Assembly: GCF_008831085.1 (NCBI RefSeq)
Contig: NZ_WBJY01000004.1
Location: forward strand, 310,001 to 374,000
Reading direction: 5' to 3'
DNA: 64,000 nt
Origin: Pseudoclavibacter endophyticus
Lineage (GTDB): Bacteria; Actinomycetota; Actinomycetes; Actinomycetales; Microbacteriaceae
Below the pieces are notes generated by a model, which made no database searches, was not told where the DNA came from, and was given only the letters and a program-made list of their open reading frames with translations. Below are positions 28,692 to 38,816 of the stretch, in pieces; positions within the stretch are counted from its first letter, which is position 1; each line of letters opens with the position of its first letter. The position numbers were made by a program, and so were the translations under genes.

Positions 28692-30788
28692 TCAGGCGCC
28701 GGCTGTCGCTCCCGCACGCCCTGCGAGCGAGGCGGCAGATCTGCGGAGCTCGCCGGCTTCGTCGTGGCGGCCCAGGTAGTCGTAGCAGACGGCCTCGTTC
28801 TCGGCCGCGACTGCGGCACTGCGGAGTTCGCCGGCCTCCTCAAGGGCCGCCCGCGCCTGCTCGAACTTGATGATGGCGGGCAGGTAGTCGCCGCGCAGTG
28901 CGTCGGCTTCGCCCAAGTACCCGAGCGCGGTGCCAAGGCCGTCGAGCTCCCGGCCCTCGCGGAAGATGCGCTCCGCCTCGGCGAATGCCTGTTGCCTCGA
29001 TGCTTGGTGCCCGAGCTGGTCGTAGGCGCTCGCGGCAAGGAACGCGCCGCGTCCAGCCATGCGCGCGACGCGCAAGGCCTCGAAGGTGCGCATCGCGTCG
29101 AGGGCGAGCTCAGCGGCCGGGCCGGCGTTGCCGGCCCGCAGCTGCGTCGTCGCGAGATCGTAGGTGATGTGCGCGAGGTAGTTCCGGCCGGCATCCGCGG
29201 TATCGCGTGCGCCGGGGTCGGACGTCGAGGCGAGGGCATCGGCCTCCGAACGCGCACGCTCGAGCGTCGCGGTAGCGTCTTCCAGCGCGCCTGCCCGCAG
29301 TTGTAGCTCGCCGAGGCGATGGCGAAGGTGCACGGTTTCCTCGCCCTCGCCCCGCAGGGAACTGCTGTCGAGGGCGTACGCGAGCCGGTTGATCGCCTCC
29401 GAGCCCCGCCGTGCGGTGAGCAGGGCGTCGACGAGCGAGTCGACCAGCTGCGCGCCGTTGAGCGACGCGGCTTCGAGCGCGGGGAGGACACCGGGGCGCG
29501 ATGCCTCGCCGGCCGCGAGCGCGTCCGTCACCTTGATGAGAAGAGGAATCGCCCTCTCGGTATCGTGGCGTTCGGCGGCCTCGACGCCCGATGTTGCGTC
29601 GCTGACGATGAGCCTGACGACGGGATCCGACTCGGGCCCCCGCGCCGGCTGCGAGGTTGGCGCGGGCGGCATCGCCTGACTGCGCAACCCGAACACGGGC
29701 GGGCTGTCCTCCGACGATTGCTCGACACGGGGGGAGTGGGCGGCGGTCACGGGCTTGCCTGCCGGGGGCGTGTCGGTTGACACCGGATGCTGCTCCCCGG
29801 TGAGCGACCCGAGTGGTGTGGCCGAGATGGGCGCGTCCTCGTGGCCGCCGTCAGGAACTCCGGCCAAGGCGTCGGGGTCGACGTCGGGACGGAACGACTG
29901 GTCGCCGTGATCAGCCGGTACGCCCGGGAATGCGACCGGCGGCACCCCGAAGGGCGACGGCGGCGGCGTTCCGAAGGGTGACGGCGACTGCCCGTGTGAC
30001 GACTGCGCCAGCGGGTCCTCGCCGTGTGGAACGTTCCCCTTCGGCGCGGCACCGAACGGCGCGTCGGATGCACCGACGGAGGCGGAGGCGGGCTGTTCCG
30101 CGTTGGGATCGACGGGGGCGAACGAAGGGGCCTGCGTCACCCACGGCGGGGGAGCATCGTGAGCCACTTCGACGGCGGGGAGCGCCTCGAGGTGGAGTGC
30201 CGTTGGCCGGCGCGCCTCGTCGAACCCGGCGAAGAGCGCGGTGTCGCCGGCGATGGGGCCGGCCATGATGAGCGCGTCATCGCGGCCCGGATACGCGACG
30301 GCGATGCCGGCGCGCCCATTGCCGCGGGCGGCGGCGAGTTCGGGATCCACGACTTCACGCAACCAGCCGTCCCAGGGCCACGACGGGTCGCGGTACTGGT
30401 CCCGCACCGCAGCATCCGACACGGCAATCTCGGTGCCGGCGATGAGCGGCAGCTCGCCGGGCGCCTCGTGCCAGAACGCCGCGGCCGGCAACGTTCCGCG
30501 CAGGGCTTCTGCCGTGCCGCTGAGCAGCACGCTCACGGCCACGAGCTGGCCGCGGCCGATGGTCCCATCGGCGACGGTCGCAATGACCCGATAGGCGCCC
30601 GACGGTACACGGACGACGACGCCGTCGACCCCGTTCTCGCCGGAGCGGGCACCGAAATAGAGCGCGTCGCTCGAGACGACGACGCTTCCGAGGTCTTCGT
30701 GCCGGAGCGCGGCTCCGGAGGCGTCGCGCTCGCGAAGCGCTCGCGACGTCGGCAGGATCGTGTCGGCCGGCGAGTCGTAGGTGCGCAT
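28692..30788 (-). CDS. Uncharacterised protein with TPR-like C-terminal half
   Basis: I do not recognise a named family for this 698-residue protein. Residues 1-220 form a globular N-terminal domain of mixed strands ([45 protein letters not shown]), distantly reminiscent of DUF4241-type sequences. About 220-420 is a Pro/Ser/Ala-rich linker. From about 430 on, paired helices rich in Ala and Leu look like tetratricopeptide repeats ([39 protein letters not shown] split over several units). ATG 30788 follows GGGGAGG. There is no signal peptide, so it is probably cytosolic. It is divergent from miaB and convergent to recX. TPR proteins usually bind partner proteins. Confidence 0.75.
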
Positions 30789-35286: not shown

Positions 35287-36174
35287 ATGACTGCGATCCG
35301 CTTCACGAAGGCTCAGGCGACTGGGAACGACTTCGTGCTCGTGTCCGACCCGGACGGCGCGTCGCCCCTCAGCACGGGGCAGATCGCGGCGCTCTGTGAC
35401 CGCCATTTCGGCGTCGGAGCCGACGGGCTGATCCGGGCCGTCCGATCGTCGCACCACCCGGAGGGACCCTCGACGCTCGCCGAGGAGCCGGCCGCCGAGT
35501 GGTTCATGGACTACTACAACGCCGACGGATCGATCGCAGAGATGTGCGGCAACGGCGTGCGTGCGTTCGTGCGCTTCCTCCTTGAGAGCGGCCTCGCCGA
35601 CCTCGAGCCGGGGGATACGCTGCCGATCGGCACCCGAGCCGGCGTGAAAGACGTGCAGCGCACCGGTACGGGCGGGTTCCAGGTCGACATGGGCCGGTGG
35701 CGCCTCAGCGGCGGCGAACCGCTCGTGGGAGCCGACGGTCTGGAGGTGCCGCGCCCTGGACTCGGGATCGATGTGGGGAACCCGCACGTGGTTGTGGCCC
35801 TGTCGTCGCGCGAGGAGCTCGATGAGCTGAATCTCGTGCCTGAGCCCCGCGTAGCCCCTGTCCCGCCCAACGGCGCCAACGTCGAGTTCATCGTGCCGGC
35901 CGATCCTCTCGTCAAGGACGGCGTTGGCCGCGTGCACATGCGCGTACACGAGCGCGGCTCCGGCGAGACGCTTTCGTGCGGCACCGGAGCTGTCGCGGCC
36001 GCGCTCGCGGTGCGCTATTGGGCCGGAGTCGACGCGCCCAACCATTGGAGCGTGCAGGTGCCTGGCGGCCTCGTGCAGGTGCGGATGTTCGCGACGGAGG
36101 AAGGCGAGCACGTCGCGCTCGCGGGCCCGGCCGAGCTCGTCTTCGACGGGGCGATCGCGCTGCCGGAGGCGTAG
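35287..36174 (+). CDS. dapF: Diaminopimelate epimerase
   Basis: Converts LL- to meso-diaminopimelate for lysine and peptidoglycan synthesis. Both catalytic cysteines are present, in [11 protein letters not shown] and [11 protein letters not shown], with the TGNDFVLV start and GADGLIR motif. The length is 295 residues. The ATG at 35287 is preceded by a leaderless -10. The last 49 bp of the gene and its stop region are duplicated at 37446-37494 beyond the nuclease gene, so an element seems to have entered at the 3' end without damaging the protein. Confidence 0.95.
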
Positions 36175-36175
36175 C
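36127..36175 (+). repeat. 49-bp direct repeat, copy 1 (dapF 3' end)
   Basis: This is the 3'-terminal 48 bp of dapF plus one base after the stop. It recurs at 37446-37494 with one mismatch (36162 G versus 37481 A). The pair brackets 1270 bp holding only the HsdR-N-type nuclease gene. Confidence 0.9.
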
Positions 36176-36219
36176 AGCACTAGCGGGTCAATGTTCGCCG
36201 GGTGTATGGGCGACTCCCA

Positions 36220-37311
36220 CTAGACATCGTATCGTTCGACGGAAGCCCGGATCTGATCCGCAAACTGATAAATCTCGTCGAGAGTATCGATCGGGTGTCT
36301 AGTCTCAGTCTTCTGGTCATCAAAGATTCCGATATACTTTTGTGTCCGATTAAAGTGCAATCGGGCAATCGGTTTACGATTGTTGTCATCCAGGAGAACT
36401 GCAAAGTATGATTTCTGATCGCGATGCACGATTCGTTCTGGTTTAACGGTGGCACACGCAATCGCTTTGACGACGTGATAGCCTTCGAGCTCGATCTCCG
36501 TAGTCTCGATGGCTCCATGTTTGAGATCCATGTCGGCCACCGCCTGACTTTCGTTTGTGATCTCCTCGTCTTCGTTCGGTGGCACTCGGTAGTCGCTCGA
36601 TCCTAGGGCGACTTTAAGGCGGTCGTTCACTTGATCGGTCAAGAATTGACTCGCCGCTTTCGCCACAAGGGGGGTGAACTGGTCCCGCACTCGCTGGGTG
36701 AAAGACCCGTCAACCAGTGGACTAGCAAGGATACGAACCCACTCATCCGACGGGTCCTTGAACTGCGCGGCAATACCGCGCTTGATTTCTCCCAAGTACT
36801 TAAGTTCCTCGGCCGCGCTGATGACCGAGTCGAGATCAAAGTCCTCCTTTGTGAGCTTGCAAAGTTCCGGAATAATGACGTCGTCCACCTCGCCCAAATC
36901 TAGGATGAGATATGGGCGTGAGTCCATTCGATTTGGCGCGTCGAGGTCTGTGTAGAAGTGATAGAGAATTCCGTTCGTAAGGATTGCAATCCTTGCGTTC
37001 GTGACAGAGAAGTACCGGTAAAGCTGCGATGAGTGCTCGATCTTCAGGTCGGAAGTCGATGGCTTGCACTCGATGAGAATCTGCACTTCACCCTCGCGCA
37101 TGACTGCATAGTCAATCTTCTCACCCTTCTTCACCCCGACATCCGCTGTGAACTCGGGCACAACTTCCAGCGGGTTGAAGACGTCGTACCCGAGGATCGT
37201 AGATATGAAGGGCATGACAAAAGCGTTCTTCGTGGCTTCTTCTGTTTGAATGGCACCGTGTTGGTCGACAACCTTGTGCGCCAGCGCATACAAGCGTTCA
37301 GTGAAATCCAT
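36220..37311 (-). CDS. Stand-alone HsdR N-terminal-type (PD-(D/E)XK) restriction nuclease
   Basis: A 363-residue protein whose first half matches the nuclease domain of type I restriction R subunits: TEEATKNAFVMPFISTILGY, then D67 in KIDYAV and E81-C-K83 in LIECKPS, the PD-(D/E)XK core, followed by QLYRYFSVTNARIAILTNG. The helicase/translocase and any HsdM or HsdS partner are missing. The C-terminal ~100 residues (LEGYHVVKAIACATV onward) form a second small domain. The gene is much AT-richer than its neighbours. AAGGAG precedes the ATG at 37311, and directly upstream lies a C-rich homopolymer tract. Likely roles are phage or plasmid defence, or DNA-end processing; this is inferred. Confidence 0.85.
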   Translation of the reverse strand: MDFTERLYALAHKVVDQHGAIQTEEATKNAFVMPFISTILGYDVFNPLEVVPEFTADVGVKKGEKIDYAVMREGEVQILIECKPSTSDLKIEHSSQLYRYFSVTNARIAILTNGILYHFYTDLDAPNRMDSRPYLILDLGEVDDVIIPELCKLTKEDFDLDSVISAAEELKYLGEIKRGIAAQFKDPSDEWVRILASPLVDGSFTQRVRDQFTPLVAKAASQFLTDQVNDRLKVALGSSDYRVPPNEDEEITNESQAVADMDLKHGAIETTEIELEGYHVVKAIACATVKPERIVHRDQKSYFAVLLDDNNRKPIARLHFNRTQKYIGIFDDQKTETRHPIDTLDEIYQFADQIRASVERYDV

Positions 37312-37325
37312 CTCGAGACTCCTTC

Positions 37326-37367
37326 GGGGGGGGGGGGGGGGGGGGGGGCGGCGGCGGGGGGGGGGGG
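37326..37367. repeat. 42-nt poly-G/poly-C tract upstream of the nuclease gene
   Basis: Plus strand: 23 G, then CGGCGGC, then 12 G. On the coding strand of the nuclease it is a C tract ending four bases before AAGGAG, inside the presumed 5' untranslated region. Such a tract is prone to slipped-strand length change; it could also be a sequencing or assembly artefact. Confidence 0.85.
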
Positions 37368-37445
37368 TACTCCGCGGAATCTACCGGAAACGGGCCACGT
37401 CGGAAAAGACTCAATCGTCGCGATTCACGTCGATCTCACCGATTG

Positions 37446-37494
37446 CCGGCCGAGCTCGTCTTCGACGGGGCGATCGCGCTACCGGAGGCGTAGC
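37446..37494 (+). repeat. 49-bp direct repeat, copy 2
   Basis: Second copy of the dapF 3' end, 48 of 49 bases identical to 36127-36175. It includes a stop codon in the dapF frame but no longer belongs to a gene. Confidence 0.9.
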
Positions 37495-37560: not shown

Positions 37561-38139
37561 CTACGGCGTCTCGCCCGGGGCCGGGACCGGCTCGAACGCG
37601 CCATCGGCGTCGGCGGGATCGAGGTCATAGCAGAATATGAACCCGGCGAACCCGATGCGCAGGTACAGCAGCTGATCGAGGGAGTCGTCCGGAATTGCGA
37701 AGACGTCCGTCACGGTCGCCAAGACGGCATCGCACGCGTGATCTTCTGCGACCTCGGGTCGCGTGTACGAGATGGACATCTCGCCACCCCGGTCCCCACT
37801 CATCGAGGTGGGCTCGCTCGCCGGGCACTCGTGGTTGGAGCGGATGACGGCGAAGGATCGGCCGGGCTACCCAATAGATCGTCGGGACGCCCGACTCGTC
37901 TGGCGTCTCGGTGGGTCCGGCACGCCGGAGTCCGACGTGGTGTGGTCGACGTGCCCGATGGCGAGGCTCTGTCCGCTGAGATTTCCGGGTTCGCCAACCG
38001 GGATCGTCGCACCCGGGGCCGCGTACATCGTCGTCTGCGGGGAGGGGGACGCTTCCGCGCCGGGCGCGCACCCCGCGAGGGCGGCAACGGCCAGCAGGGC
38101 GAGCCCGAGGATCGGCGTACGGCGATCGGCAAGGGCCAT
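37561..38139 (-). pseudogene. Putative lipoprotein gene with two compensating frameshifts
   Basis: From ATG 38139 the frame encodes a signal peptide with lipobox LAGC and a mature start rich in Pro/Ser (GAEASPSPQTTMYAAPGAT), and then reaches a stop at about 37867. The middle part (PTETPDESGVPTIYW) continues in a second frame, and the final ~80 residues (HECPASEPTSMSGD to GAFEPVPAPGETP) are again in the first frame. A one-base deletion near 37918 and a one-base insertion near 37868 would explain this. Reconstructed length is about 192 residues. It may be a decaying gene or an assembly error. No strong ribosome-binding site is seen. No function is recognised. Confidence 0.55.
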
Positions 38140-38189
38140 GCCGGCATCGAACCGGCGCCGTTCTAGTCGCGCCGGTGTGCGCTGCATGC

Positions 38190-38816
38190 TCACATTGGGC
38201 GCGCGACCCTCAGGATGCGGAAGTTCTTCGCACTGTCGTAACGCGAGACATCCAACCCCGGGCTTTCGCCCGAGTGGTCGAACTCGTCGGCAAGCCATCG
38301 CTGCAGCGAGTCCGCTCCAAGGTGCTTTTGCACGACGAGGTAGGCCTCGCCGCCGGGCGCGAGTCGCGGGAGCCACGTACGCATCAGCCCGTGGAGCACC
38401 GGTTTTCCAACGCGGATGGGCGGGTTCGACCAGATCACGTTGAACGTGACATCGGTCGGCACAGCATCGGGCAGCGAAGCGCGGATTCCCGTGGCGCCCG
38501 TTCGCGCCGCGTTCGCGGTCGCGAGGTCGAGCGCGCGCTCATTGACGTCGACCGCCCACACGTCGAGCCCGGGCGACTCGAGCGCCAAGGCGAGCGCGAT
38601 CGGCCCCCACCCACACCCGAGGTCGAGCGCGGCACCCTCCGGCGGGGGCGCGGGGGCGAGGTCGAGCAGCACCCGGGTGCCCTGGTCCAGTCGTTCGGAG
38701 CTGAAGGTCCCGGGAGCCGTTTCAACCTCGACGCGATGGCCGCGCAGCGACACGTCAATGCGGCGCCGCTCGTCGGGACTGGCGGGTATCGCCGAGAAAT
38801 AGTGCTCGCTTGTCAC
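38190..38816 (-). CDS. RsmC/RlmG-like class I SAM-dependent methyltransferase
   Basis: Probable rRNA (guanine-N2) methyltransferase of 208 residues. The SAM-binding motif I is LDLGCGWGPIAL, an acidic AVDVNERAL follows, and the catalytic NPP motif is SNPPIRVG, as in N2-guanine methyltransferases. The common start VTSEHYFS fits GTG 38816; the frame is open further upstream to 38948 but without similarity. It corresponds to only the C-terminal half of E. coli RsmC, as is usual in actinobacteria. It is divergent from hflX. Confidence 0.87.
   Translation of the reverse strand: MTSEHYFSAIPASPDERRRIDVSLRGHRVEVETAPGTFSSERLDQGTRVLLDLAPAPPPEGAALDLGCGWGPIALALALESPGLDVWAVDVNERALDLATANAARTGATGIRASLPDAVPTDVTFNVIWSNPPIRVGKPVLHGLMRTWLPRLAPGGEAYLVVQKHLGADSLQRWLADEFDHSGESPGLDVSRYDSAKNFRILRVARPM

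Follow-up and report, generated by a model that had tools for sequence, protein, structure and literature searches.

A lone HsdR_N nuclease gene between two copies of the dapF 3′ end in Pseudoclavibacter endophyticus, and bracketing repeats in its family

Classic targets of integration include the 3′ ends of genes and of tRNAs. Insertion of restriction-modification genes with long duplication of the target is mainly known from Helicobacter, and was reportedly described by Nobusato et al. in 2000 and by Furuta et al. in 2010. Two papers state that the target can be duplicated over a long stretch of variable length (roughly 100 bp in magnitude) when certain restriction-modification systems insert, and that individual genes of such systems can move by themselves (PMC3874152, PMC3031569). 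Two others record islands that have no integration module yet have repeats at their ends (PMC3146451, PMC5704250).

The nuclease gene family described here resembles the restriction-modification insertions in its restriction-type nuclease, in the lack of any recognised transposase or integrase, in long target repeats of variable length and in the unrelatedness of its targets; it differs in that the nuclease is alone, with no methyltransferase in the unit, in its occurrence in Actinomycetes, and in the position of the repeat, which in three cases out of five is a gene 3′ end. As in integrase-less islands and CIMEs (PMC5704250, PMC3146451), repeats of a gene 3′ end bracket recombinase-less cargo and the host gene is whole, but here there is one gene only, and no related integrase-bearing element or shared att was found for dapF.

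Layout and composition of the locus

The window is a stretch of 64,000 nucleotides from P. endophyticus, a member of the Microbacteriaceae (contig NZ_WBJY01000004.1, positions 310,001 to 374,000), and its relevant features are collected in Table 1. Sequence reading and a repeat search agree on a pair of 49-bp direct repeats that match at 48 of 49 positions with an offset of 1319 bp; extended to 36178 and 37497 the copies differ at two positions of 52. The pair is the sole direct repeat of at least 30 bp between positions 30000 and 43000 of the window, and when a 48-bp pattern was searched across the 3.26-Mb genome with up to three mismatches allowed, exactly two sites were found, both of them the known copies.

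Table 1. Features of the dapF locus, in window coordinates
Feature	Position	Strand	Evidence or remark
dapF (diaminopimelate epimerase), intact	35287..36174	+	last 48 nt inside repeat copy 1; Pfam DAP_epimerase, E 1.7e-43
Repeat copy 1, the true dapF 3′ end through the stop codon	36127..36175	+	52 bp to 36178 at 50/52
Inserted segment between the repeats, 1270 bp, one recognisable gene	36176..37445		sequence, ORF list, GC, Pfam
HsdR_N / PD-(D/E)XK nuclease gene, 363 aa	36220..37311	-	HSDR_N, E 2.3e-10; PHROG_4225
Shine-Dalgarno-like GAAGGAG before the nuclease ATG	37319..37325	-	by eye
42-nt G/C tract, G23-CGGCGGC-G12 on the + strand	37326..37367		genome run search
-10-like TAGATT, 72 nt before the nuclease ATG	37378..37383	-	by eye
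Repeat copy 2, detached dapF 3′ end	37446..37494	+	one silent change from copy 1, CTG to CTA
Methyltransferase gene (MTS, Pfam), usual convergent neighbour of dapF	38190..38813	-	Pfam, dapF locus comparison

The original prediction had described a pair of 49-bp repeats of which the first is the real end of dapF, a dapF gene left whole, an insert carrying a single gene, and no integrase or transposase. The reading, the repeat search and the genome pattern search bear out the repeats, and the intact dapF and the single recognisable gene between the copies bear out the layout; no recombinase was recognised in the insert, and none of nine further ORFs (60 aa or longer) that overlap it gave a Pfam match at E up to 0.1. 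A composite transposon finds no support, there being no other repeat of at least 30 bp between 30000 and 43000 and no transposase in the surrounding ORF list as judged by eye. Between copy 2 and the methyltransferase gene, at 37561-38140 on the minus strand, lies a lipoprotein-like frame with an internal stop, whose pieces have no Pfam match and which looks like a pseudogene.

GC content is 0.49-0.57 within the insert and 0.66-0.72 in dapF and in the 37.35-39 kb region. A separate stretch of low GC (0.51-0.61) lies at 33.9-34.6 kb. The enclosed gene is thus AT-richer than its surroundings, as had been claimed, but in 157 of 157 family loci measured the nuclease gene is likewise below its flanks in GC (mean gap 9.4 points). 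As AT-richness is a trait of the family, low GC says little about when the window copy arrived, and it is a weak sign of recent arrival.

The G/C tract lies 14 nt before the nuclease ATG, inside the insert, and is the single place in the genome with at least 12 G (or C) in a row; no run of C or G reaching 8 was found in the 160 nt upstream of 157 other family copies. The TANNNT motifs of the family upstream regions peak near -36 and the TAGATT of the window stands at -72, an extra distance for which the tract would account; it thus seems that the G/C run expanded in the stretch separating the ribosome-binding site from the promoter. Phase variation may explain it, or else an artefact of sequencing or assembly. 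A different motif, CCCGA(A/G)N0-2(T/A)GGGG, occurs about 80 nt before the start codon in 15 of 158 family upstream regions, with nine sites exactly at -80; mononucleotide shuffles predict 0.2 regions, a comparison in which related species may inflate the observed count. It is a possible operator.

The nuclease family and its bracketed copies

The window protein matches PHROG_4225 (‘endonuclease’) over its full length with an E-value of 1e-121, and no feature was seen in the protein that would distinguish it from that family. D67, E81 and K83 are invariant in 45 aligned nuclease sequences, and we take this D and E-x-K set to be the catalytic residues of PD-(D/E)XK HsdR_N nucleases. Judged by its family, the product is likely to restrict foreign or modified DNA. 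Neither PADLOC (best E 0.0018) nor NCBIfam (best E 0.02) gave it a confident name, and a sequence search found no convincing relative of known structure. Among the 8000 candidates scored, chosen for sharing the most words and all of them homologous, the closest besides the window's own protein is 74% identical; homologues that bear a name are about 70% identical, and relatives of about 360 aa are called ‘type I restriction endonuclease’ at NCBI and, in some cases at JGI, ‘predicted type IV restriction endonuclease’.

The distribution of the family is patchy: counting fragments, 79 of the 398 genomes in Microbacteriaceae have a match, as do 48 of 396 in the order and three of ten in the window's genus. 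The other two copies in the genus (genomes G003 and G004) have neighbours common to both, and no relatives of dapF, of the methyltransferase gene or of hflX were found within the 17-18 kb around them. When 61 nuclease loci were compared, neighbours were common to some species groups and many contexts differed; by eye, no shared ends were found in the upstream or downstream flanks, only a promoter-proximal motif in some. Homologues also turned up in 18 phage records and in 45 records of a plasmid collection; of the latter, one or more (H9) have the size of a chromosome. C-terminal remnants, beginning at about residue 272 or 313, are present in L081, L082, L083, G790 and G825, and such remnants in several genomes suggest repeated decay. 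In Escherichia coli RS571 (L407) an IS2 element interrupts the nuclease gene.

Bracketing was surveyed at 165 distinct family loci: the window and 60, 72 and 32 loci from three collections, with 16 same-gene duplicates dropped and the remnants L081-L086 included. The loci were drawn from 60 of the 79 Microbacteriaceae genomes and six more, from 80 loci kept out of 569, and from 34 of the 48 genomes of the order. A locus was called bracketed when a direct repeat of at least 30 bp and at least 90% identity was found within 520 bp on both sides; the flank of L165 is too short for this, which leaves 164 scannable loci. Five of them, the window included, are bracketed, against none of 1648 control positions in the same DNA. 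The Fisher p-values for this excess (5.7e-6, or 6.3e-5 without the window) are indicative only, since common ancestry links the loci, intergenic position was not matched in the controls, and the data had been looked at before the criterion was fixed. With a limit of 350 bp, four of 165 loci and none of 1820 controls are bracketed; an initial scan with laxer settings (700 bp, E of 1e-8 or below, any identity) flagged eight of 133 gene loci and seven of 949 control positions.

No target sequence is common to the bracketed copies, and their targets are unrelated. In the window the target is the dapF tail (52 bp, copy spacing 1319 bp). In Kocuria varians (L178) it is the tail of a methyltransferase gene (Methyltransf_25, E 8e-16), repeated over 54 bp at 94% with a spacing of 1346 bp; its attached and detached copies both end in a stop, and their differences lie near the end. 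In Brachybacterium (L265, genome G799) the 3′ part of tRNA-Phe and its terminator are repeated over 107 bp at 99% with a spacing of 1768 bp, with an intact tRNA-Phe on one side, a partial copy on the other, and the nuclease as the only clear gene of the ORF list between them. The two other targets are palindromic repeats. That of L099 (genome G012) spans 61 bp at 97% with a spacing of 1375 bp and belongs to a dispersed palindromic family, for which 40 of 44 candidates were scored and 42 matches obtained over both strands; with copy 1 as the query, copy 2 is 97% identical and the next-best place 89%. The G012 genome carries this palindrome of about 60 bp at some twenty places. That of L128 (Arthrobacter sp. 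ISL-72) spans 30 bp and passes at the 520-bp limit only, failing at 350 bp.

Several other candidates were rejected: L062 (160 bp at 88%, in a repetitive neighbourhood), L130 (54 bp at 83%), L123 (102 bp at 82%) and L158 (119 bp at 78%), the copies of the last two resembling, by eye, the ends of related genes. L118 (182 bp at about 90%) passes at the 350-bp limit and fails at 520 bp, and its region matches many Curtobacterium sites.

dapF and other insertion sites

The original prediction had made dapF a non-tRNA attachment site, and had proposed looking in relatives for cargo between two copies of the 49-mer in the interval between dapF and the methyltransferase gene. This part found no support: a duplication of the dapF tail (at least 30 bp, at least 90%) was found downstream of dapF at none of 69 other loci (68 genomes, G002 being represented twice), which were read for about 18.7 kb in 40 cases, 4.4 kb in 20 and 1.5 kb in nine, lengths that larger islands would escape. 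The window's genome has no third copy of the 49-mer, despite its five matches to PF00589 (integrase family) at four places. With no tail copy at 69 other loci and no third 49-mer, dapF as a general attachment site is unsupported, and we reject it; no report of dapF as an integration or attachment site was found in the papers searched. The wider claim of an island-like entry at a gene 3′ end survives in part: other family copies are similarly bracketed, at tRNA-Phe and methyltransferase-gene tails.

In the 40 Microbacteriaceae loci read for about 18.7 kb, the methyltransferase gene follows dapF within 229 bp in 33, inserts of 1.3-10.8 kb precede it in six, and the gene order is altered in one. 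Matches to the dapF tail at these loci are weak (18-39 nt at 79-94%), none having both 30 bp and 90%. At L394 and L011 the stretch read downstream of dapF contains no methyltransferase gene. Within the genus, where dapF proteins are just 64-70% identical (the nearest 70%) and the dapF 3′ end is highly variable, no second tail was found within 1.5 kb of dapF in nine relatives (4.4 kb in G002).

The largest of the six inserts (L362, genome G119; 10.8 kb, GC 0.58) lies between dapF and the methyltransferase gene and carries a GmrSD type IV enzyme, HsdM, a type I R subunit, a ThsB-like TIR protein and an 8xMP membrane protein; no dapF-tail repeat was found at it. The remaining five hold ordinary-looking genes by eye. 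Inserts in six of 40 dapF spacers, one of them with defence genes, indicate that the site tolerates insertion, and the spacer may be a defence hotspot in the genus of G119.

The tRNA-Phe site of L265 was examined by comparing its joined flanks with 38 Brachybacterium genomes. The two sides are 57-132 bp apart in G630, G730, G739, G838 and G712, so these five have no insert of the size of L265; in other Brachybacterium genomes the distance ranges from about 0.5 to 40 kb. Two of the genomes with longer inserts, G662 and G565, have partial tRNA copies of about 50 bp at this site. G498 has the whole nuclease gene at this position, and G790 and G825 have remnants of it.

A counter-case comes from E. 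coli, where close copies of a relative with 53% identity to the window protein are present in 186 of 5426 genomes. The insert again occupies a convergent gene end, and 40 bp separate the nuclease gene from the aldB stop; relative to nuclease-free strains with the same neighbours (L403, L404), 1420 bp replace 103 bp, and a repeat search found no direct repeat beyond 20 nt across the gene. An insert without duplication shows that duplication is one outcome, not a rule. A match to 80% or more of the 7-kb aldB context is likewise found in 186 genomes, from which the gene seems to be confined to one locus in E. coli.

Origin of the insert

Our best reading, to which we give an even chance, is that a single gene was inserted while a long stretch of its target was duplicated, in the manner reported for restriction-modification genes. 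The HsdR_N nuclease gene alone, accompanied by 134 bp from upstream and 44 bp from downstream of it, would have entered at the dapF 3′ end, and the last 49-52 bp of dapF would have been duplicated during the insertion, so that dapF was kept whole and its old tail was displaced beyond the nuclease gene. We infer both the order of these events and that the insertion caused the duplication. The molecular route is a guess and the weakest step; repair of a staggered break, or template switching, might have captured a short linear fragment. The repeats of variable length, the unrelated targets, the want of shared ends and of a recognisable recombinase, and the roughly constant one-gene unit fit this reading. 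Against it stands the bracketing of five copies among 164, and the choice of tRNA-Phe and two gene tails as targets would be equally expected of a site-specific integrase. A bolder version, in which the nuclease itself drives the insertion by making widely staggered cuts in the chromosome, with a preference for gene 3′ ends and hairpin terminators, where its gene then becomes captured, is a long shot; if true, it would make the gene a self-moving element of a single gene that needs neither transposase nor integrase and has no defined ends.

The main rival, at a clearly lower probability, is that the insert is a minimal genomic island, its repeats being the attL and attR of a tyrosine or serine recombinase that acted in trans, or the ends of an integrase-losing remnant of a larger island (CIME). 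The intact dapF, the use of gene and tRNA 3′ ends and the integrase-family genes of the host are all in keeping with this, and its best evidence is the tRNA-Phe site, where the gene in L265 follows an intact tRNA-Phe and a partial copy closes the far side, where other genomes have the gene or its remnants, and where longer inserts occur, two of them with partial tRNA copies. These copies, however, are about half as long as the repeat of L265, and the three unrelated targets with units of near-equal length point to the gene, rather than an island, as the unit. Integration and transfer genes are absent from the insert, as from a CIME, but its ends did not prove to be att sites of a known integrase element, and the dapF survey, like the search for a third 49-mer, came out against an island.

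Rather improbable, in our estimate, is homologous recombination, in which circular or linear donor DNA that already had a dapF tail beside the nuclease gene crossed with the resident dapF and left two tails. A near-identical repeat of 49-52 bp is what a single crossover with a tail-bearing circle should leave, and the apparent confinement of the E. coli gene to one locus would fit spread by recombination in the flanks; yet the donor must have been a near relative, because dapF 3′ ends differ greatly already within the genus, and the question merely shifts to that donor, which needed the arrangement already. Least probable of all is an error of assembly or sequencing that misjoined the insert or the second copy, perhaps at the G/C tract, whose singular run does lie inside the insert. 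The left junction shows no oddity, the two copies are not identical, the contig is 380 kb long in an assembly of six contigs, and similar arrangements with other targets exist in other genomes.

With some of its copies lying within long duplications of unrelated targets, and with a near-constant unit length in three of these cases (1319, 1346 and 1375 bp), the nuclease family is a small, testable system for the movement of single defence genes without a recombinase. It would widen insertion with long target duplication from Helicobacter to Actinomycetes.
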